Below, piece by piece: positions 3,369-11,859 of a DNA stretch of 64,000 nt; position 1 is the first letter of the stretch; every line of letters begins with the position of its first letter. Source of the stretch: Aromatoleum aromaticum EbN1 (lineage in GTDB: Bacteria > Pseudomonadota > Gammaproteobacteria > Burkholderiales > Rhodocyclaceae); assembly GCF_000025965.1 (NCBI RefSeq), contig NC_006823.1:62001-126000 (forward strand), read 5' to 3'. A program made the position numbers and the translations under genes. The notes below the pieces were generated by a model. It worked only from the letters and a program-made list of their open reading frames with translations, made no database searches and was not told the origin of the DNA.

Positions 3369-5062
3369 CCTGAATCCGTGTTGTCTTCAGCGCGTACCCG
3401 CTCCGCGAGCCCCAGCGCATGATTTTTCTGCTGCCTGACTCCCAATCTCAGCTCACCGCAGCCCCGAGCGCCGTCCTTTCACGGCCCGGAGCGCCGGTGA
3501 GCCGGGCTTCCGGCGGGGGCGCTACGTCATTTTCCTGCTCCCGCGCGGCCGTCGCCCTTCCGCCGCTGCGAAATAGCCTCGATTCGGAGAATTCAGTCGC
3601 CGGCTTCGCATCACGGCGAAGCCACCACACACAGCCGCGCCTGCACCGTGGTGAACACCTTCACATGCGCGGCGACGCCGCGCCCGAAGTCCAGCACCAG
3701 GCGGCGAGCGTGTTCGACGAACTTCGCCGCCCGGTACATCACCTCCTGCAACACCGTCTTGATGCGCCGGCGCTTGGCCGGGTGGCGGATCGGCGAGAGC
3801 TCGCCGGTCAGCCCGAGCTGCCCGATCAGGCGCAGGCAGTTGTAGGCGAATGCGGCCAGGTGCACGACCGCGTCGTTGGTGTCGAACTTGCCCGAGGGCA
3901 GGCGCTCGAGGTCCAGGTCGGTCTTGATCTCGGAGTGGAACTGCTCGTGGGTGCCGTGGTGCTTGTAGAGCTCGATCACATCGGCCATCGGCACATCAAG
4001 GCTGGTCCACCAGCCTTCGATCTCGATCTCGGGGGCCAGCAGGTGCTGGCCCTTCTTGTCGATCGTGCGCTCGGTCACCCGCACCACCAGACGCAGCGTG
4101 CGCTTGGCCTTCTTCCAGGCGCGCTCCACCTGCAGATCGAGCAGTCCCACGCGCTTGCCCGCGCGGACCTCCTCGAAGACGCCGGCGGCCTCGGCGCGGG
4201 CGACCCAGGCGGCCTTGTCCTGACGGCGCGGATTCCACTTGGTGAGGTAATCGAACGAGCGCTCAAGACCGGCCCAGCGCTCGCGCTCGGCCGCCAGCGC
4301 GAACAACAGCCGGGCGCTGTCGAAGCCGCTGTCGGCGCGCCACAGCACCTTCGCGTCCGCGGCGCACACGCGCTCGAGACGCGGAAAGACCCGCTCGAAG
4401 AAATACTCCGTCTCCAGTGCCGAGTGGTGCGAACCCGCGCGCAGCTCCAGGCCGAGGTTCCAGCCCTCGTTGCCCAGGTACAGCGCGATCGGCGTGTAGC
4501 CGTCGACCCCCTGGTAGGTGCGGCTGACCGCCTCCTTCTTGGTGTCGGAGTTATCCATCACGAAGGTATCCATGTCGGCGCACACGTAGCCCTTGTGCGC
4601 CGTGATCGGCGCCTCGGTGCGCTCGAGCAGGCGCAGGCTCAGCTCGTCGGTCAGCTCGCGCAGCTCGGCCGCGCGGGCATCGAGCCGTTGGCGCATCCAC
4701 ACGCTGCCGGGCACCTTGGCGAGCCCGAGCGCTTCCTTGAAGAAGCGATCGCTGCGAAACGGCTCGATCGCCTCGAAGTCGCTCTTGCCCAGGCTCAGCA
4801 GCCCCACCATCGACTTGACCAGGTCCGAGGTGCGCATGCCCTGCGACACCGGCAGCCTCGGGTCGATCACCGCCTCGACCTGTGCCGCCTGGCAGCACTG
4901 CCCGATCAGTGCCAAGCCCGAGTAGGAGGTCAGGTTGAGCTTGGCGGATTGCTTGACTTCGAAGCGCGGCATGGTCGGTTGGGTGAATGAGTCGGATGCG
5001 TAATTGTACAATTACATCAATGTGTTAGGCTGGATTTCCGGCTAAGCGAACACGGATTCAGG
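3369..5062 (-). mobile_element. IS1380-family insertion sequence, complete
   Basis: A 1694-bp element. Its ends are 14-bp perfect inverted repeats (CCTGAATCCGTGTT at 3369-3382 and its complement at 5049-5062). It is flanked by a 5-bp direct repeat TAACT at 3364-3368 and 5063-5067, consistent with IS1380-type target duplication. One intact transposase gene lies inside on the minus strand. The perfect ends and duplication suggest a recent insertion, just downstream of the bactofilin operon. Confidence 0.92.
3611..4972 (-). CDS. IS1380-family DDE transposase
   Basis: 453 residues from the ATG at 4972; a TTG 13 codons upstream is less likely. The protein matches IS1380-type transposases: an N-terminal segment around 'LIGQCCQAAQVEAVID', a central catalytic part with 'CADMDTFVMDNSD' and 'WRADSGFDSARLLF', and a C-terminal part with 'HGTHEQFHSEIKTDLDLERLPSG'. 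It catalyses cut-and-paste movement of the element around it. The length is usual for the family and no frameshift is seen, so it may be active. Long open frames on the opposite strand are shadows. Confidence 0.95.
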   Translation of the reverse strand: MPRFEVKQSAKLNLTSYSGLALIGQCCQAAQVEAVIDPRLPVSQGMRTSDLVKSMVGLLSLGKSDFEAIEPFRSDRFFKEALGLAKVPGSVWMRQRLDARAAELRELTDELSLRLLERTEAPITAHKGYVCADMDTFVMDNSDTKKEAVSRTYQGVDGYTPIALYLGNEGWNLGLELRAGSHHSALETEYFFERVFPRLERVCAADAKVLWRADSGFDSARLLFALAAERERWAGLERSFDYLTKWNPRRQDKAAWVARAEAAGVFEEVRAGKRVGLLDLQVERAWKKAKRTLRLVVRVTERTIDKKGQHLLAPEIEIEGWWTSLDVPMADVIELYKHHGTHEQFHSEIKTDLDLERLPSGKFDTNDAVVHLAAFAYNCLRLIGQLGLTGELSPIRHPAKRRRIKTVLQEVMYRAAKFVEHARRLVLDFGRGVAAHVKVFTTVQARLCVVASP

Positions 5063-5176
5063 TAACTGATAGAATCGGTAACGCGCCTTTTTAGGCCAAA
5101 AGAATACAGAAAATCAGACCGATTAGAATTTCTGCGAGAAACCATCTAGCGAAGAAAATCAGACATTGAAAACACA

Positions 5177-5215
5177 AAGCCCTGGGATCGAGGTACGAAC
5201 TCGAGCCCAGGGCTT
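5177..5215. terminator. Strong stem-loop, possible terminator
   Basis: A perfect 10-bp stem (AAGCCCTGGG at 5177-5186 with CCCAGGGCTT at 5206-5215) continues inward through TCGAG/CTCGA. A T-rich tract follows only in the minus direction. It lies between the IS element and the first rep-like gene, so it may shield rep from read-through. Confidence 0.5.
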
Positions 5216-5254
5216 ATGTGTACAACTTGCGATTACGTGTGATACGTGATCTGT

Positions 5255-5322
5255 ACTTGCTAAGAAAAATCGGTTGGCGCCGATAAATCCAATCCCACAA
5301 CGATGGAGCTATCTTAGCAAGT
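5255..5322 (+). repeat. Nested inverted repeats upstream of rep-like gene 1
   Basis: An 11-bp perfect inverted repeat, ACTTGCTAAGA (5255-5265) and TCTTAGCAAGT (5312-5322), brackets a smaller one, ATCGG(6 nt)CCGAT (5270-5285). A partial direct repeat of ACTTGC lies at 5224. It ends 33 bases before the start of the rep-like gene. An operator or replication-control site is plausible. The other rep-like gene also has nested inverted repeats at its start. Confidence 0.55.
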
Positions 5323-5355
5323 GCAAATTACGCGTCAAGGGCTTCTGTCGACTTT

Positions 5356-6660
5356 TTGCCAGAAAAAGGGAAAAGTCGGCCTCTTGGACCGTCTTTTGTG
5401 GCCTCCTCATACTCTGCTGCCCCGCTGTCTTCACAGCCACGGCGGCTTCCCAAGCTCCTCGTCGACGCTAAAGCGCGCGTCTTCGATTCGCTCAAATTTC
5501 TAGACCTGAGCACCCTTGCCCGGCGCACGCTGTCGGGGCTCCTCACTTTCCTGAATATCAGGAAGCTCGATCAGCCTTTGTGGCCTGAAAGAGAAGTGCT
5601 ACGCAAGGAGTGCCATCTGGGCAGCGTTGAAACCCTCAGTCGCGGCATTCGAGAACTCTCCGATCGCGGCTACCTGGTCAGGGAGCAATGGCGACGACGC
5701 GACGCAGCTCGCCATGGACAGTTCGCTTATTCCAAAACATGGCTGACGAATCGTTGCCTGCTTGAACTTGACCTCATCTGCCCTGCCCCACAGATCGACC
5801 CCTCGCAAGACCAGCTTGATGCTATCGAGGCATGGGAGGCCATCCAAGCAGCAGTCCCCGTCACCGATCTGATTCTGGACGCAGAAGAAGGCGCAGGAGA
5901 CGACGAAAAGCATTTAGACAGCCCACCCTATCCCGACGAACCATTCGAGGCGCTAGCCGCCCCAGAATCGCGTTTTGCCACGGAAGTGCGCGACGACAGC
6001 GACGCACATTCCCTCGAAAAATTTTATCCACAGGCGCCGTCGGTCAATTTGACCCTCGGTATACATGAGAGTGAACGTCCCACTAAACCTCAACTCATAA
6101 GAGAACAACCCAGAACCGCCAGTGCAAGATCAACCGGCAGGTCATCAGGGGACTTTTCTGAAAAACTTCAAAACCAGATAGACCCGTCAAGCCGTTTACC
6201 AGTCGAGCTGACCGCCTTGTTTGACTATGGCTTGAACAAGCCGACCATTGCTTATCTCATGCGACTTGCCAGAGAGGCCGACAAGACTGGAGCCCTTGGG
6301 TCGATCTGGAAGCTTGCGAAGTCTCGAATCGATGCGCTGAAACTGCAAGGCCGATCTGTCTTCAAATACCTTCGTGCCATGATCAACAAGCCAACTGACT
6401 TCGCACGGGTCGCGTCGAATAAGGCCCAAACTGAAGCGATCAAGCGGGCGCAGTCTGAAGCTGCGCGACACGTTGAGATCAAGTGCGACGAGCTCGAGGG
6501 GCAGCTTTTCAGGGGCGAAGGAGGGACGATGATTCAAGTCGAAGCAAACGGACTGCTGCGTGTTCATAGGCCGGGAGACGTGGTGCGATACGGCCGGATG
6601 AACGCAGAGTTTCTCGAAGCACTTGCAGCCGGGCACTTACGTCGGATCGTAGCGGCTTAA
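5356..6660 (+). CDS. Rep-like protein 1 (winged-helix, putative replication initiator)
   Basis: About 434 residues. The start is unsure: TTG at 5356 is the only convenient start before the conserved part, which begins near residue 30. Residues ~40-115 look like a winged helix-turn-helix of plasmid or phage O-type initiators, with 'REVLRKECHLGSVETLSRGIREL' followed by a wing. A variable acidic linker follows, then a second conserved domain (about 270-350) with 'KLQGRSVFKYLRAMI'. It is clearly paralogous to the protein at 8074-9492. An apparent origin module lies inside the gene at 6024-6076. The initiator role is inference from fold, paralogy and the DnaA box; no named family was confirmed. 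Confidence 0.65.
   Translation: MPEKGKSRPLGPSFVASSYSAAPLSSQPRRLPKLLVDAKARVFDSLKFLDLSTLARRTLSGLLTFLNIRKLDQPLWPEREVLRKECHLGSVETLSRGIRELSDRGYLVREQWRRRDAARHGQFAYSKTWLTNRCLLELDLICPAPQIDPSQDQLDAIEAWEAIQAAVPVTDLILDAEEGAGDDEKHLDSPPYPDEPFEALAAPESRFATEVRDDSDAHSLEKFYPQAPSVNLTLGIHESERPTKPQLIREQPRTASARSTGRSSGDFSEKLQNQIDPSSRLPVELTALFDYGLNKPTIAYLMRLAREADKTGALGSIWKLAKSRIDALKLQGRSVFKYLRAMINKPTDFARVASNKAQTEAIKRAQSEAARHVEIKCDELEGQLFRGEGGTMIQVEANGLLRVHRPGDVVRYGRMNAEFLEALAAGHLRRIVAA
6024..6076 (+). other. Putative intragenic origin module, copy 1
   Basis: In order: a perfect DnaA box (6024-6032), GGCG, a 23-nt palindrome starting CCG and ending CGG with 9 of 11 pairs matched around GGTCAA-T-TTGACC (6037-6059), then TATACA followed by GAGAGTGAAC (6060-6076). 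The module at 8658-8710 in the paralogous gene has the same parts at the same spacing, but a different palindrome core. Confidence 0.6.
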
Positions 6661-6739
6661 TTGAGAGCCAATAAGCCTCATGCATGAATCTATGTGGCGG
6701 AGTTGATCGATAAAGGCCAGTTTTCGGAGACACAGTTAA

Positions 6740-7195
6740 ATGACGAAGAACTACCGCAGTGAAGCACTCGGTGCTATCCACGAGACAATGGAAGCGCTCT
6801 CCGAGATTGGCGCAGTCGACGAGCGCACCATGCGCGAGTTTGACGAAGCGTGCCTCACGTCCGTTGAGGCTTTGTCGCCCGATGAGATTCGTGCGTTGCG
6901 CGAGCTGGGTTTTCAGCTGAAGGTACAACTAAAAGAAGGCAACGACGAGCCCGCGTTTGATGCGCTTATCGACGACCTGATCGTGTTCATCGAGGCGCGA
7001 GGCTTGCTGATGGGAGGTTTTGGAAATCCGAGTGAGCTTTGGCATGAATCGTTGATCTGCGCGGCGGGTCGTGGTTCAGCGTCAGATGAGGACCGATTCG
7101 CAGTGCGCAAATGGCTTTCAGGGCACCCAGCAGTTGAAGAGGTGCAGACTGGCGCCTTGGTTGATGCCTGGTATGGTTGGGAAACGGAGGATTGA
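6740..7195 (+). CDS. Chimera of an HTH-antitoxin N-terminus and a YggL (DUF469) domain
   Basis: 151 residues. Residues 1-56 match the N-terminal segment of HigA-like HTH antitoxins ('YRSEALGAIHETMEAL', 'TMREFDEACLT', 'SPDEIRALRE'), but the HTH that normally follows is absent. From residue ~57 the protein is a YggL/DUF469 domain ('LGFQLKVQLKEG', 'FIEARGLLMGGFG', 'LICAAGRG', 'VRKWLSGHPAVEEV', 'LVDAWYG'). YggL of E. coli associates with the 50S ribosomal subunit. The frame is open throughout with no stop or shift. It stands alone, convergent with the GNAT toxin gene. Whether the fused protein works is unknown. Confidence 0.7.
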   Translation: MTKNYRSEALGAIHETMEALSEIGAVDERTMREFDEACLTSVEALSPDEIRALRELGFQLKVQLKEGNDEPAFDALIDDLIVFIEARGLLMGGFGNPSELWHESLICAAGRGSASDEDRFAVRKWLSGHPAVEEVQTGALVDAWYGWETED

Positions 7196-7205
7196 ATCCC
7201 TGCAT

Positions 7206-7697
7206 CTACCTTACTGACGCCAACGGTAGGAAGAGTCGTAGAGGGGTGTCGCTTAGCGCGATGAAGTCGTAATGTCGGTAGAAGGCGGCAGCGTCATCGT
7301 CCTTGGCATCAACGATCAGGGCAAACGCGGCGATCTCGGAACTGGCGGCACGGCGTAGTGCATTGACCAGCAACGCCCCACCCAAGCCTTGGCCCTTGAG
7401 CGCCTCATCAACAGCCAAACGCCCCATTCGTATGGCTGGCACCGCCGCATAGCGCGGCAACTTCCGGGCGATGTCGCCAGGTAGATCGGTCAGCGGAACG
7501 CTAGCCGTAGCGAGCGTGTAGTAGCCGACGATTTGTTGATCCTCGCCAAGGGCAACGAAACAGGCCGCGACTCGACGACGAACATCTTGGCTAACCTGCT
7601 CGCGGAAGTAGCGATCTAAAGGCGCTGAACCGCTGCTGAAGGACGAGCGGTCAACTGTGGAGTCGAGGGCAACGATTCGCAGCGGCGAACGGTTCAT
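7206..7697 (-). CDS. GNAT-family toxin (TacT/AtaT-like acetyltransferase)
   Basis: 163 residues with a GCN5-related acetyltransferase fold. The acetyl-CoA site is visible as 'RLAVDEALKGQGLGGALL' (about 85-102), and the C-terminal 'DAAAFYRHYDF' carries the usual catalytic-region Tyr. Such toxins acetylate the amino group of charged tRNAs and stop translation. The ATG overlaps the stop of the upstream DUF1778 antitoxin gene by 4 bases, the standard order for this toxin-antitoxin type. It would stabilise the plasmid by post-segregational killing. Confidence 0.9.
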   Translation of the reverse strand: MNRSPLRIVALDSTVDRSSFSSGSAPLDRYFREQVSQDVRRRVAACFVALGEDQQIVGYYTLATASVPLTDLPGDIARKLPRYAAVPAIRMGRLAVDEALKGQGLGGALLVNALRRAASSEIAAFALIVDAKDDDAAAFYRHYDFIALSDTPLRLFLPLASVR

Positions 7698-7975
7698 TCA
7701 GCACCAAACAGTTGATCATGCTTGGCCATCGCCCGCTTCAAAGCAGTGGAGGGTTTAGGCGGCGAAAGCAAGGCGTCGGCAAAGCGCTGCTGGTCGGCCA
7801 ACGAGAGTCGGATTACCTCAGCTTGCTCGATGGCCTTCTGAGCGGCGTCCTTTACGGCAGTGACGACGAAATCGGTCATGGTGCGTCCTTGAATCTCAGC
7901 CGCGCGTTTGAGCAAAGCGTGCAGGTCCGGGCTTATTCGGGCTTCGAGCCGGGCGGTGGAAGTTGTAGGTGGCAT
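7694..7975 (-). CDS. DUF1778 antitoxin (TacA-like)
   Basis: 93 residues. The N-terminal part is a ribbon-helix-helix ('STARLEARISPDLHALLKRAAEIQGRTMTDFVVTA', cited in part), typical of DUF1778 antitoxins; the C-terminus ('ALKRAMAKHDQLFG') would wrap the GNAT toxin. It neutralises the toxin at 7206 and probably represses the operon with it. The start has a perfect AGGAGG site and a well-spaced promoter upstream (7996-8024). Confidence 0.9.
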   Translation of the reverse strand: MPPTTSTARLEARISPDLHALLKRAAEIQGRTMTDFVVTAVKDAAQKAIEQAEVIRLSLADQQRFADALLSPPKPSTALKRAMAKHDQLFGAE

Positions 7976-7995
7976 GGTAGGTTCCTCCTGCGTAA

Positions 7996-8024
7996 ATTGT
8001 ACGGCTAGTTGCCGGTATGTTCAA
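7996..8024 (-). promoter_or_regulatory. Promoter of the toxin-antitoxin operon
   Basis: On the minus strand, TTGAAC (8019-8024) and TACAAT (7996-8001) are separated by 17 bp, followed by AGGAGG and the antitoxin ATG. This is a good sigma-70 arrangement (4/6 and 5/6 matches). Confidence 0.6.
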
Positions 8025-8073
8025 TGTCCCGATCTTAGCGCCCATAGCGGCCCGCACGGGCGGAGGAACGCAC

Positions 8074-9492
8074 TCAGCACGGCCGCAGATGCAAGCGACC
8101 TTCTTCCACTGCCTGCATAAAGCGCAGGTTAGCCGGCAGCGCAACGCGGCCGCGCTTCGGATCAAAGCCCTCCATGTATCCAGTTTCACCGTTCGTGCGC
8201 AGCGTCCCGATCGCTTGACCTTCTGCGTTACGCACTTGAAAGCCATCCCCGCGTGCAAGCAGCACCGCCAGCTTCTCGGACAGTCGCGCCCTGGCTGAGG
8301 CGGTGAGCACCCCGTCGATCTCGCTGGCCGCTTGCTGCTTGAGCAGGTAGGCGTAGTCGCGTTTCTGGCTGAGGACTTTGCGCAGATAGGCAAAGACCGA
8401 TCTGCCTCTTAGCCCATGGATGTGCTGCCAGAAGAGCTTCACTGCTGCGCCAAGCGCACCTTGCTGACCTTGGCGCTTGGCGTGGGCCATCAGGGTGCAG
8501 ATCAGCGTCTTGGAGACACCGAGCTTCATGAGTGGCGTCACGTCCTGTGGCAACCGGGATTTGGGATCGATGTTTTCAGAAGAATCCTTCAGCGACGACG
8601 GGTCGGGTAGGGATTCGCGCGTGGGAAGTTGTCCTTTTAGCTGTAGATCAAGGGTAGGTTCACTCTCTTGTATACCGTGTCTCACCACGAGACACGGCTC
8701 CTGTGGATAAGTAGCGTACGGGGTGACGGTCGTGGGCTCCTGGGGAGCCGCGTCCGCTTCCCAGCCCGATTCGTCATCCTGCCAGTAGTTGCGGCCGGCC
8801 TCCCACGCCTCGAGGATCTCTGCCTGGTGCTGTGCCTCGCAGGTTTCAAGCGAAGCATCGATCTCGAGCAGTCCGGCGGCACTGGAGAGTGAATCGACAG
8901 AGGAGGGGAGGGCGTCGAACTCAGCGGAGGAGGATGGGGGTACTCCAACTTCTGTGTGCTGTTCGTCCTCAATCGAGGAGGCCTGCGTTGATGCGGGCGA
9001 GGTCGAGAGTATCCGAGGGCCTGCCAGTCCGAGCATCAACAATGTCTTGTCGAGGACGTAGATGTGACTTCGACTGAACTGCCCATAGGATCGACGGCCC
9101 CAGTTGCGGACTTGCTCACGACGGATGTAGCCCTTGTCTTCGGCTTCCTGAAGGCCACGAAAAAGTTTGGAGCGACTACTGAGCAGGGTTTCAGCTTGAA
9201 GCGTGTCACGAAAGGCAAAAACAGGTTGTTCAGGATGGCCAAGCTTAAAAAAGGCCAGCACACCGTAAAGCACCTGGCGCGCGGTCTGCGACAGGTCCTG
9301 GCAGTACAGGCGGTTCATCACCGCGGCTCGTGCGTTGATCAGGGGGACAGGGAGAAAGCGCGGACGTGGTCCGTCGCAGTCCCCTCGGCCCGCATTGAGG
9401 CGAATTGGAGTAGTCACGTGAAAAAGTCCGGGTTCGCCTTTTTCAAGGCAATAGAATCCCTTGACGTTTCCCGGCTGTTTGATACCATTCAC
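8074..9492 (-). CDS. Rep-like protein 2 (winged-helix, putative replication initiator)
   Basis: About 472 residues from a GTG at 9492; a GTG ~25 codons later is an alternative start. It is paralogous to the protein at 5356-6660, with the same 'RLYCQDLSQTARQVLYGVLAFF' lead-in, a winged HTH with 'TLLSSRSKLFRGLQEAEDKGYI', an acidic variable linker, the shared 'YPQ-P...GI-ESE' block and the C-terminal 'GLRGRSVFAYLRKVL' domain. It is divergent in orientation from copy 1, with the toxin-antitoxin pair between. The origin-like module at 8658-8710 lies inside it. Two different initiators may mean two replicons in one plasmid, or one spare copy (inference). Confidence 0.65.
   Translation of the reverse strand: MNGIKQPGNVKGFYCLEKGEPGLFHVTTPIRLNAGRGDCDGPRPRFLPVPLINARAAVMNRLYCQDLSQTARQVLYGVLAFFKLGHPEQPVFAFRDTLQAETLLSSRSKLFRGLQEAEDKGYIRREQVRNWGRRSYGQFSRSHIYVLDKTLLMLGLAGPRILSTSPASTQASSIEDEQHTEVGVPPSSSAEFDALPSSVDSLSSAAGLLEIDASLETCEAQHQAEILEAWEAGRNYWQDDESGWEADAAPQEPTTVTPYATYPQEPCLVVRHGIQESEPTLDLQLKGQLPTRESLPDPSSLKDSSENIDPKSRLPQDVTPLMKLGVSKTLICTLMAHAKRQGQQGALGAAVKLFWQHIHGLRGRSVFAYLRKVLSQKRDYAYLLKQQAASEIDGVLTASARARLSEKLAVLLARGDGFQVRNAEGQAIGTLRTNGETGYMEGFDPKRGRVALPANLRFMQAVEEGRLHLRPC
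8658..8710 (-). other. Putative intragenic origin module, copy 2
   Basis: On the minus strand: a perfect DnaA box (8702-8710), GGAG, a 23-nt palindrome with 9-bp perfect outer arms CCGTGTCTC/GAGACACGG (8675-8697), then TATACA followed by GAGAGTGAAC (8658-8674). The spacing and flanks are the same as in copy 1 at 6024-6076; only the palindrome sequence differs. Confidence 0.6.
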
Positions 9493-9537
9493 CTCAGTTG
9501 GCGGTGAGGTCTGACCGGTTGGCCCCGGTTTGGTATC
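9481..9537 (-). repeat. Nested inverted repeats at the start of rep-like gene 2
   Basis: GATACCA (9481-9487) and TGGTATC (9531-9537) bracket ACCTCA(8 nt)TGAGGT and a GGTC-T-GACC palindrome. The inner arm overlaps the start codon. This fits an operator or RNA structure that limits rep expression. Confidence 0.45.
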
Positions 9538-9571
9538 AGACAGCAGAAAAGCATCACCCTTTTCAAGAAAG

Positions 9572-9606
9572 CCCGGCTCGGTTGGCCCCGAGACCGGGTT
9601 TTTCTT
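9572..9606. terminator. Rho-independent terminator, probably bidirectional
   Basis: A GC-rich stem (CCCGG-CTCGG with CCGAG-ACCGGG, 9572-9598) is followed by TTTTTCTTTT on the plus strand. On the minus strand it ends in CTTTCTT and could stop parB transcription before rep-like gene 2. Confidence 0.7.
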
Positions 9607-9670
9607 TTGTCAGCAGGATGTGTCTTTGTTTTGGTCGCTACATCGCGATCTCCAGTCTATAAACGTGCGA

Positions 9671-9692
9671 AACCCCGCTCGGGGGCGGGGTT
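9671..9692 (-). terminator. GC-rich hairpin after parB
   Basis: AACCCCGC (9671-9678) pairs with GCGGGGTT (9685-9692) around a 6-nt loop, about 120 bases beyond the parB stop. The T-tract is short, so it is a moderate terminator candidate. The rest of the 9493-9814 interval shows no gene; it holds only these hairpins and an AT-rich stretch next to parB. Confidence 0.5.
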
Positions 9693-9814
9693 GCGTGATA
9701 GTCAGCAGGACTTTAGAGGCCGGGTGATGCGGGCGTCCGCTGGGGGGCGCCGTAGTATCCGATTTACCATCTCTGCTAACCTAAAAATAAAAAATCGTTA
9801 AAAATCAAAGGTGT

Positions 9815-10708
9815 TCAAGTTGAAACACGGCCTTCAGCTGCCTTTGCATACTTCTTGATCAAGTTCTCGATCTCTTCCTTAAGTGCATCTGTGGCGGATT
9901 CGTCTGAAAAATCCAGTCGAAGACATGATCCAGTCTTCCTGACAGAGCAGAACGTTGTATTGCCCCTTCGAATCGTGATGATCTCCGGCACTGGTTTCTC
10001 TCTCGCCTTGCCTTTTCCAGCGCTCTTGATCAGAGAAATCGCCTGTTTCATGCTGATTTCTTCTGATGCAACCTGCTTAAGAGCTTGTGCAATCACGTCT
10101 GCCGGATGATGCTCAACAAGCTTCGATACCTCGAAAATTCCAGCAAGGCCGAACTTCTCAGGGTTCAGTTCCACAACATTCAATGCAGCTGATGGAAGTG
10201 TCCCGAACGCCATGAGCCGAGAGATAAGACTCCTATTGATGCCCGCCTCTTCAGCAATCTCCGATTGGTTCTTGCCGGTCGAAGCCATACGCTCCTTGAA
10301 GCCCAGGTATTTTTGGTAGTCGGGCAGGTCGATAGAAAGCAGGTTCGAGTAGAAGGCTGCCCGCTCGACGCCGTCGTCATCGAGATCGACGACGTGAACG
10401 TCGATCTCTGTGCGCTCGAGCTCTCGGTATGCGGCCACACGGTTGTGGCCGGCGATGATCTCGAAACGGCCGTTATCGATTGCGCGGACAGTTACCGGCG
10501 TCGCAAGAGGATTGTTCGCCAGGTTCTCCACGAGTTGCTGGTACTGCTCGTCGGTGAGCTTCCTGCGTCGGCCGGGCACTTCTTCCAGGAGGTCCAGGCT
10601 GACCTTCGCGGTTACGGCAGGGAGTCCTTCCGCGGGCCTTCCGAACTCGCTATCGGCGGGCATGGTGCGAAGCACCAGGCCGACTGGATCGCGTTGCCGC
10701 GTCTTCAT
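9815..10708 (-). CDS. parB: Plasmid partition protein ParB
   Basis: 297 residues. The ParB/Sulfiredoxin N-domain carries 'EIIAGHNRVAAYREL' (about 83-98), the GxxRxxA CTP/DNA-clamp motif. It is followed by an HTH, 'NQSEIAEEAGINRSLISRLM' (about 145-165), that would bind parS. The C-terminus is acidic and helical. ParB loads on parS and works with ParA to move plasmid copies to daughter cells. It overlaps parA by 4 bases (10705-10708). Confidence 0.92.
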   Translation of the reverse strand: MKTRQRDPVGLVLRTMPADSEFGRPAEGLPAVTAKVSLDLLEEVPGRRRKLTDEQYQQLVENLANNPLATPVTVRAIDNGRFEIIAGHNRVAAYRELERTEIDVHVVDLDDDGVERAAFYSNLLSIDLPDYQKYLGFKERMASTGKNQSEIAEEAGINRSLISRLMAFGTLPSAALNVVELNPEKFGLAGIFEVSKLVEHHPADVIAQALKQVASEEISMKQAISLIKSAGKGKAREKPVPEIITIRRGNTTFCSVRKTGSCLRLDFSDESATDALKEEIENLIKKYAKAAEGRVST

Positions 10709-11859
10709 TTCCTATCCCCTTTGGTTTTCGAGAGCCTGTCGACAATCTTTTCGCGGATGTAAGCCGCGAACGCCCTGTACTCGCAAGCCGATGTTGATGT
10801 CGGTTTCGTGATAGAGAGCGGCATGCTGCGCTCTTGAGAGTTTGGCAGGTCTTCACTTACAGAGATCACGTAGGGCGAAACGCTGTCGCTGTAAGTCTCG
10901 AGCTCACGCCGCATGCGGCTGATCCGACCGACATTTGTAGAGTAGTGCGTCGGGAGAATGATGAGTTCAGGCTTCAAGCTCCATTCATCCTTAAACACAT
11001 GAATCTCGGAAATCATCTTGCTGATGCCCTTGATCGAAAAAACATCCATCCGTATCGGCGCAATCAGCAGGTCAGCGGCGACCATTCCCGAGGATGTGGT
11101 AGTCGAAACGGTAGGTGGACAGTCGAGAATGATTACGTCATAGATGCTGGTGTCAAAACCGGGGATCGCACCCTTTGCAGCTTCATCGAGCATGTTGCGC
11201 AAGAACCGCTCACGGTTTCCTGTCGCGACAAGAAGAGTCCGTTCGATGCTGCTCAGGAATGTGTCGGCGGGGACGAGATGAGGCCCGTGTTCCCCAAAGG
11301 GCTTTTTGATGAGACTTTTCAGGTCATAGGGCATCTGCCTAACGCGGCCGCCTTGCTGCGAGCTCACGTATGCCTCAAGGACATTCGCGAGCGTTTCGCG
11401 GACCACTGCCTTCTCACTCAAGCCGAAACTTTCGGCTTCCTCCATCATGATGTCAGGTTCGTAACCCATGATTTGTGTTGCGGAGGCCTGAGAGTCAAGG
11501 TCGATCAGCAGCGTCCGAAAGCCCAGTAGTTGAAGCTCAACGGCCAGCTCAACAGAGGTGACTGTTTTGCCTGTCCCGCCTTTGCACACGGTCACTGCAA
11601 TGACGAACGGCTTTCCATGAGTCTGAGGAACCTTGAGATAACCCTGCATCCGTCGCCAGAGCGCAATCTCGAAAATCTGCGAGGGCTCATAGATCCGGAT
11701 GGGGGGTGCCCCAGGGTTCGTATCGGAAGCTCTCCGAATGTCGAAGTTCTCCGAGTAACCCCGGAGCGTGACATCTGTGACGCCAAGCATCGCTGCCGCC
11801 TGTCGAATCCGATAGGTCACGCTTCCGATGTCTGCAAAAGTGTCTCGAGGTTGGCTCAT
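10705..11859 (-). CDS. parA: Plasmid partition ATPase ParA (type Ia)
   Basis: 384 residues. An N-terminal MerR-like HTH ('YRIRQAAAMLGVTDVTLRGY', about 15-35) is typical of type Ia ParA/SopA proteins that repress their own operon. The deviant Walker A motif 'CKGGTGKT' (about 105-112) is followed by 'LIDLDSQASAT' and the 'VIILDCPP' Walker B/A' region. ParA forms dynamic ATP-dependent patches on the nucleoid that pull ParB-parS complexes. A strong promoter lies upstream at 11892-11920. Confidence 0.93.
   Translation of the reverse strand: MSQPRDTFADIGSVTYRIRQAAAMLGVTDVTLRGYSENFDIRRASDTNPGAPPIRIYEPSQIFEIALWRRMQGYLKVPQTHGKPFVIAVTVCKGGTGKTVTSVELAVELQLLGFRTLLIDLDSQASATQIMGYEPDIMMEEAESFGLSEKAVVRETLANVLEAYVSSQQGGRVRQMPYDLKSLIKKPFGEHGPHLVPADTFLSSIERTLLVATGNRERFLRNMLDEAAKGAIPGFDTSIYDVIILDCPPTVSTTTSSGMVAADLLIAPIRMDVFSIKGISKMISEIHVFKDEWSLKPELIILPTHYSTNVGRISRMRRELETYSDSVSPYVISVSEDLPNSQERSMPLSITKPTSTSACEYRAFAAYIREKIVDRLSKTKGDRK

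Follow-up and report, generated by a model that had tools for sequence, protein, structure and literature searches.

Where does a large plasmid begin to replicate when it carries two initiator genes, and could each gene contain its own start site? This question is raised by plasmid p1 (C2; 207,355 bp) of Aromatoleum aromaticum EbN1, whose genome also holds p2 (C3; 223,670 bp) and C1 (4,296,230 bp). We analyzed positions 62001-126000 of p1, a stretch of 64,000 nt that is called the window below and whose first base is position 1. Two paralogous replication initiators, RepA and RepB, are encoded in the window. An earlier note on this DNA had described an origin-like module in the same codon frame of both genes (a DnaA box, a 4-nt spacer, a 23-nt palindrome with 9 of 11 pairs and a TATACA tail), and this description proved exact in each gene. 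The comparison with related rep genes reported here makes it probable that each module is the Rep-binding core of a theta-type origin, located inside the gene of its own initiator.

Matched modules in repA and repB

The repA gene occupies 5356-6660 on the plus strand and is convergent with repB (8074-9492, minus strand). Both start codons are uncertain. RepA appears to consist of a winged-helix-like N-terminal region (approximately residues 27-145), a linker and a C-terminal region. Scans of NCBIfam and Pfam assigned it to no NCBIfam family and to no credible Pfam family. The two proteins are identical at 139 of 441 aligned positions (32%). The modules lie in the linker, whose conservation is poor compared with that of the regions on either side, and both dyads begin at codon frame 0.

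On the plus strand of repA, the DnaA box TTATCCACA (6024-6032) is followed by the spacer (6033-6036), the dyad CCGTCGGTCAATTTGACCCTCGG (6037-6059) and an AT-rich conserved tail, TATACATGAGAGTGAAC (6060-6076), which is a candidate unwinding region and comprises TATACA (6060-6065) and GAGAGTGAAC (6067-6076). On the minus strand of repB, the same box (8702-8710) precedes the spacer (8701-8698), the dyad CCGTGTCTCGTGGTGAGACACGG (8675-8697) and the AT-rich tail TATACAAGAGAGTGAAC (8658-8674), with TATACA at 8674-8669 and GAGAGTGAAC at 8667-8658. Each dyad is the proposed binding site of its own initiator and the proposed origin core. The tails of the two genes differ by one base. The palindrome cores differ and both stay palindromic with 9 of 11 pairs, as the earlier note had observed. 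In repA, the 20 nt 3' of the dyad contain 60% AT, compared with 44% for the gene.

When the two genes were compared by blastn, the 53-bp module was the best match (77%, E value 2.4e-7) and every other match had an E value of 0.019 or worse. Palindromes of this quality are not rare alone, as 138 of 430,981 23-mers in both large plasmids of the genome have at least 9 of 11 pairs. TTATCCACA occurs at three sites in the window (180, 6024 and 8702), and the degenerate box TTWTNCACA matches seven times against 2.6 expected, a count reached in 3 of 100 shuffles. The tail motif, searched on both large plasmids with up to three mismatches, was found in three rep copies and nowhere else.

Conservation of the module among relatives

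A tblastn search of a plasmid collection with RepA and RepB (E 1e-5) gave no match, and the relatives were reached through intermediate proteins. We examined 33 rep genes of Rhodocyclaceae and Burkholderiaceae; the 24 plasmid records were chosen for spread. A rep fragment without the N-terminus (G674, locus L039), three weak matches (G559, G298 and G266), three genomes represented by Thauera K11 pTX1 (G661, G745 and G771) and a second B. glumae record, of the same locus type as bglu_2p, were excluded before counting. The RepA gene of a metagenome-assembled genome, with 10 base differences and the same dyad, was kept outside the 33-gene, tree, covariation and redrawn-codon sets but inside the 22 dyad genes used for box and tail. 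At genus level, a profile search detected the rep family in 3 of 17 genomes; the counts were 12 of 395 at family level and 3 of 369 at class level. Each count includes the own genome, and some of the matches are weak. Many RepA relatives are annotated as 'replication protein O', and a search for viral or phage relatives found none.

The dyad is present in frame 0 in 21 of the 33 rep genes. On the protein tree, in which EbN1 RepA, pMOL28 and P. aromaticivorans form long branches, its presence requires 2 changes, compared with 10.1 when labels were shuffled (0 of 500 as low). A third rep gene, on p2, carries TTTTCCACA-GGGG-CGGTCTCTCACCGTGAGAGACCG-TATACAAGAGATTGAAC with a dyad of 11 of 11 pairs. 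Box, dyad and tail are all kept, with different cores, in G438 and G614. G428 keeps the dyad and an 8/9 box, and its tail is replaced by AATATAAGGAAC, resembling the group of Burkholderiaceae plasmids. In the latter, which carry more distant relatives, the sequence is approximately CCGTCTGCCA-nnn-TGGCAGACGG, and in most of them TATATATAAGGA comes next. Searching 12 plasmids for a half-dyad-plus-tail pattern with up to three mismatches gave one copy each in 9 of them and none in the remaining three, which have sequences divergent from the pattern. In all 22 dyad genes, the 20 nt 3' of the dyad are more AT-rich than the gene.

The DnaA box is less widespread. It lies 4-5 nt before the dyad (-13/-14) in 11 of the 22 dyad genes, nine times exactly and twice with one mismatch. 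Within the Burkholderiaceae clade (11 genes), the only box is that of M. endofungorum, at -22 and with one mismatch; the other ten genes have none. This distribution indicates that the box is a lineage trait of the Rhodocyclaceae-type dyad genes and C. gilardii. The refuting observation named in the earlier note, homologues in which the palindrome is lost or the DnaA box is not conserved, was thus made in part: the box is not general, and 12 of the 33 genes lack the dyad.

Constraint on the dyad at the DNA level

The earlier note had proposed aligning the rep genes at nucleotide level to test for lower synonymous divergence at the site, and signs of synonymous constraint were seen there. All nine residues shared by RepA and RepB inside the module use the same codon, compared with 33 of 109 outside it (Fisher P 5e-5). 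Each of nine gene pairs compared showed this excess, with P values from 1e-5 to 0.022, although these pairs overlap and are not independent. When codons were redrawn with the protein fixed, the dyad was better than expected (P 0.0013-0.063 per gene). The summed -2lnP across these tests was 199 on 42 degrees, which is not a clean P value, given the relatedness of the genes and their selection for having a dyad.

Across the dyad genes, 85.3% of the dyad cells are paired, compared with 76.8% in shuffled and 31-41% in slid alignments. Covariation in the dyad was 0.257, against 0.107 after shuffling (standard deviation 0.021; 0 of 500 as high) and 0.034-0.078 after sliding. Changes on both sides were seen for 6 of the 11 pairs. 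Pairing is absent at the innermost position in 11 of 21 genes and at 2-22 in 10 of them, which leaves a conserved unit of approximately two 10-bp arms around 3 bp. The residues encoded by the dyad vary by clade (PSVNLTLG, PCLVVRHG, RSLTVRDR and PSASVADG) while the pairing is kept.

GC-skew minima and the two proposed units of p1

Detrended cumulative GC skew was calculated for 11 plasmids, some of which are related. In seven of them, the distance between module and skew minimum was at most 10% of the half-length (Fisher P 1.4e-5). It was 220 bp in p1 (repA module) and 374 bp in pBRH02, both 3' of the dyad; it was 1.6 kb in M. endofungorum, 1.7 kb in Robbsia, 2.4 kb in P. fungorum, 5.6 kb in pMOL28 and 5.75 kb in p2. 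Taken together, the in-frame conservation in 21 of 33 genes, the synonymous constraint, the covariation, the single copies in 9 of 12 plasmids and the skew minima give good comparative support to the origin-like modules of the earlier note as in-gene origin cores; its DnaA box as a general component did not hold.

The p1 minimum is closer to the RepA module than to the RepB module. Both genes look selected for. Against the metagenome contig L027 (JALHFX010000001.1), RepA shows 7 synonymous and 3 other changes, giving a ratio of nonsynonymous to synonymous changes per site (pN/pS) of 0.14 from a small count, and RepB shows 38 synonymous and 26 other changes (pN/pS 0.23). These ratios fit the upkeep of both genes, so that a dual replicon, which the earlier note had raised, is plausible but unproved. 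Each Rep may have co-evolved with its own dyad, and both origins may be active.

L027 is labelled Propionibacterium but carries a p1-type betaproteobacterial plasmid region at 95-99% identity, and is probably mis-binned. Two parts of the window are missing from it. One is an insertion at 3369-5059, whose flanks overlap by 8 bases, like a target duplication, and which contains a transposase open reading frame (ORF) with a DDE_Tnp_1_4 domain (3611-5011, minus strand). The other, at 6906-8073 between repA and repB, holds a GNAT/TacA1-type antitoxin pair at 7206-7975.

Predicted antisense RNA control

A countertranscribed RNA is predicted over each rep leader. Over the repB leader (9461-9610, plus strand), a promoter-like TTGACG-16-TACCAT (9461-9488) is followed by a terminator hairpin (9575-9600) and a T-run. 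The ORF start of repB falls where this RNA would begin, which adds to the uncertainty of its start codon. Over the repA leader (5177-5338, minus strand), the corresponding elements are a promoter-like TTGACG-16-TAAGAT (5338-5311) and a terminator-like hairpin (5215-5177). The consensus scan of the repB leader is weak alone (one promoter against 0.2 expected, one terminator against 0.9). In the repA leader, the scan gave one promoter against 0.6 expected and did not list the 5215-5177 hairpin, but listed two weaker ones at 5391-5377 and 5284-5269.

Since the single-leader scans are weak, we base the antisense prediction on the whole family. Taking as a terminator a hairpin of -18 kcal/mol or stronger with a T-run, 25 of 32 leaders have one on the antisense strand upstream of rep. 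The expectation from mononucleotide shuffles is 0.14, and the sense strand yields 7. In 21 of these 25, the terminator ends 150-182 nt before the start used. The hairpin apex is often GTTGGCGC or GGTTCCAGCC across the family. An Rfam scan gave no match. The family-wide pattern suggests that a countertranscribed RNA limits Rep.

Proposed mechanism

In the mechanism that we propose, a Rep dimer would bind the 10-bp dyad arms (approximately CCGTCTxxCA-nnn-TGxxAGACGG) through its N-terminal winged helix. The AT-rich stretch directly 3' of the dyad (TATACAAGAGA or TATATATAAGGA) would then melt, and the helicase would be loaded there. In the Rhodocyclaceae lineage, the DnaA box 4-5 nt upstream of the dyad would bring in host DnaA. 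The antisense RNA over the leader would keep Rep limited. p1 would carry this unit twice, each time with a dyad of its own: once with RepB, at the parA-parB-rep locus, and once with an inverted RepA. The variable linker that holds the site separates two protein regions, so that the coding sequence could tolerate the dyad, and initiator and origin could travel together. We infer Rep binding, melting, use of DnaA, antisense control and the activity of both units from the comparison of sequences.

Evidence against in-gene origins and alternative roles of the dyad

Several observations weigh against in-gene origins. The dyad is absent from 12 of the 33 relatives, namely Thauera K11, two Sulfuricystis plasmids, Azospira, Comamonas, Acidovorax, Diaphorobacter, Delftia, pHG1, a C. 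oxalaticus plasmid, P. aromaticivorans and pMOL28, so some members of the family must use another arrangement. Parts of the module are found in this group: pMOL28 has a 6/11 dyad remnant in the same frame, Azospira and one Sulfuricystis plasmid retain a TATATA stretch, and an exact DnaA box persists in Thauera K11. The skew minimum is 12-54 kb off in 4 of 11 plasmids (both Pandoraea plasmids, P. dioscoreae pI and C. gilardii), and GC skew cannot resolve the module from the neighboring par/rep locus. The single-gene synonymous tests reach P 0.0013-0.063 at best, in genes chosen for having the dyad. The RepB dyad differs between p1 and L027 at 4 of 23 bases (three of them central; two pairs gained, one lost) while the N-terminal region is nearly unchanged, with 3 differences in the first 470 positions of the gene, which argues against a simple co-evolution of Rep and dyad. 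An AlphaFold model of RepB, built on a four-sequence alignment, had a predicted local distance difference test score of 33. Finally, a search for parS in p1 identified none, which leaves room for a centromeric role of the dyad.

Such a centromere would be bound by ParB and would happen to sit in the adjacent rep gene, with the origin elsewhere. parS sites are palindromes near parAB. Perfect palindromes of 14 or 16 bp with at least three copies are lacking in 7 of 11 plasmids, including p1 and p2, and there are no repeated 12-16 bp perfect palindromes near the p1 par-rep region. KorB-type operators that could serve as parS were looked for on p1, and none was found. However, the two modules, whose dyad cores differ, lie beside the single ParB gene identified here. 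An AT-rich tail accompanies the dyad, as does the DnaA box at near-fixed spacing in one lineage, and some plasmids have other putative parS candidates, including KorB-type sites on p2. We regard a centromere as quite improbable.

Repeated palindromes that are possible parS sites or operators were seen in P. dioscoreae pI (TTTCGCATGCGAAA, seven copies), Robbsia p4 (AATTTGGCGCCAAATT, six copies) and pMOL28 (AGGAACATGTTCCT, four copies), all perfect. The KorB-type operator TTTAGCSGCTAAA has seven exact copies on p2 (12003, 12453, 20570, 53573, 58001, 135117 and 142665), suggesting IncP-like regulation of this plasmid. By eye, L039 has two KorB-type operators; its rep frame is cut to the C-terminal part and has no linker dyad.

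The dyad might instead be a Rep-bound operator or an incompatibility (titration) site that controls rep expression and not the start of replication. A Rep-binding site within rep could block transcription, and a binding site alone would yield equal conservation of the dyad. It would need neither the conserved AT-rich tail nor the DnaA box, though, and rep control already has a candidate in the antisense RNA. Region 4950-9830 has no iteron-like repeats, and the skew minima of p1 and pBRH02 lie just 3' of the dyad at the distances given above. A purely regulatory site seems quite unlikely as well. A hairpin in the rep messenger RNA, acting in pausing, stability or as an antisense target, is very unlikely: covariation by itself cannot tell an RNA hairpin from a DNA dyad, but G-U occurs in just 4 of 197 paired cells, the arm sequence is conserved within clades beyond pairing, and the DnaA box and AT-rich tail are DNA features. 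That a conserved linker peptide caused the DNA similarity is scarcely credible, since the YPQxPxxxxxxGIxESE shared by the RepA and RepB linkers stands against encoded residues that differ between clades while pairing stays, identical codons for shared residues far above background, and covariation.

Comparison with known replicons

An origin core inside each initiator gene, the reading that we prefer, has precedents. In phage lambda, the origin lies within the O gene, between the DNA-binding and helicase-recruiting regions, and contains four iterons. The earlier note had cited this case. The proposed origins likewise lie in an initiator gene between two protein regions, but there is one dyad in place of four iterons, and the closest described layout is that of repABC plasmids. 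An initiator of the lambda O type was rejected, as there was no Phage_rep_O Pfam match and the module has a single dyad without iterons. The O-like family of PHROG gave an E value of 0.2 with RepA and no match with RepB; its best match in the rep family (4.3e-5) was a protein of the Thauera K11 type, itself without a dyad. An iteron plasmid was also considered. No direct repeats of at least 15 nt within 200 nt were found in 4950-9830, so iterons are ruled out there; the short repeats in the rep leaders and around the modules are two-copy ones only.

In repABC plasmids, oriV lies in repC, and replication is lost when silent mutations are made in the AT-rich part of this origin (PMC3155836). An antisense RNA is encoded between repB and repC (PMC3155836; PMC5613091), and purified pTiR10 RepC binds a segment in the middle of repC that contains an imperfect dyad close to AT-rich DNA (PMC6090056). 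These origins are described as having no DnaA boxes and the family as alphaproteobacterial only (PMC6090056). p1 resembles the repABC plasmids p42d and pTiR10 in the order ParA, ParB, antisense RNA (predicted here) and initiator, in being a large low-copy plasmid, and in the proposed in-gene origin, where a mid-gene imperfect dyad, the putative binding site of the initiator, lies close to AT-rich DNA. Unlike them, p1 has an exact DnaA box beside both dyads, and we do not file it as a repABC member.

The partition genes of p1, like repB, are on the minus strand. ParA (10705-11859) matched PF13614 (108.9 bits) and PF01656 (55.4 bits), and ParB (9815-10708) matched TIGR00180 (70.4 bits, cut-off 58.45) and PF02195 (35.6 bits, cut-off 26.3). 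In 20 of the 24 plasmid records, parA-parB stand directly or almost directly before rep, and the RepB locus has this order; RepA has no parAB alongside. The order is not found in Delftia, C. oxalaticus and pHG1, and in M. endofungorum the locus is cut by the record start.

The RP-C family (PF03428) matched neither RepA nor RepB nor anything else in the EbN1 genome. Among 21 rep proteins scanned, pMOL28 RepA passed the cut-off (33.2 bits against 24.4), and C. gilardii (20.8 bits) and B. vietnamiensis (16.8 bits) stayed below it. In hhalign, the rep family aligned with 20 RepC at 92.7-96.7% probability over 80-113 columns, within RepA residues 27-145 at most; reversed RepC gave about 2% or less. 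Against single sequences, 9 of 20 RepC loci reached at least 80%, compared with 1 of 7 other winged-helix proteins (83%; a second reached 56%). The rep family might share ancestry with RepC at the winged helix. Among the best mid-gene palindromes of 19 alphaproteobacterial repC genes, none resembled the dyad.

The parAB-repA replicon of pMOL28 (Cupriavidus metallidurans) has the same family and gene order as the p1 RepB locus, but its dyad is degenerate and it has no adjacent DnaA box. The partition/replication region of pMOL28 drives the vector pCUP3 at copy number 1 (PMC8570001), and this supports the rep family as functional replicons. A literature search of limited extent found no description of in-gene origins for these plasmids.

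It is possible, though we hold this only tentatively, that the Rhodocyclaceae and Burkholderiaceae plasmids form a second repABC-like branch, perhaps with RepC ancestry at the winged helix, a dyad and AT-tail origin in rep and a DnaA box in one lineage, and that p1 naturally has two origins, each paired with its own initiator and insulated from the other. If the in-gene origins are real, the origin would be defined base by base in this plasmid family, where most initiators carry the annotation 'hypothetical protein', 'helix-turn-helix' or 'replication protein O'. This would also suggest that the arrangement of parAB, antisense RNA and rep with an in-gene origin extends beyond the Alphaproteobacteria. 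The dyad variants would offer matched Rep/site sets for the evolution of initiator-origin specificity, incompatibility and cis-preference, and would bear on whether DnaA is an optional add-on.

Other features of the window and genome

An ORF with a YggL_50S_bp domain lies immediately 3' of repA (6740-7195). Genes for F-type conjugation (TraH, TraC, TraN and the coupling protein) occupy approximately 14800-44000, where GC content is 52-56%, compared with 55-61% before and 59-65% after this region. A dispersed, near-identical repeat with TTATCCACAGGCGGCCGCC was read at 7 of 8 chromosomal loci (L001-L004 and L006-L008, L006 with one variant base), and it also occurs twice on p2 (98692 and 173041).

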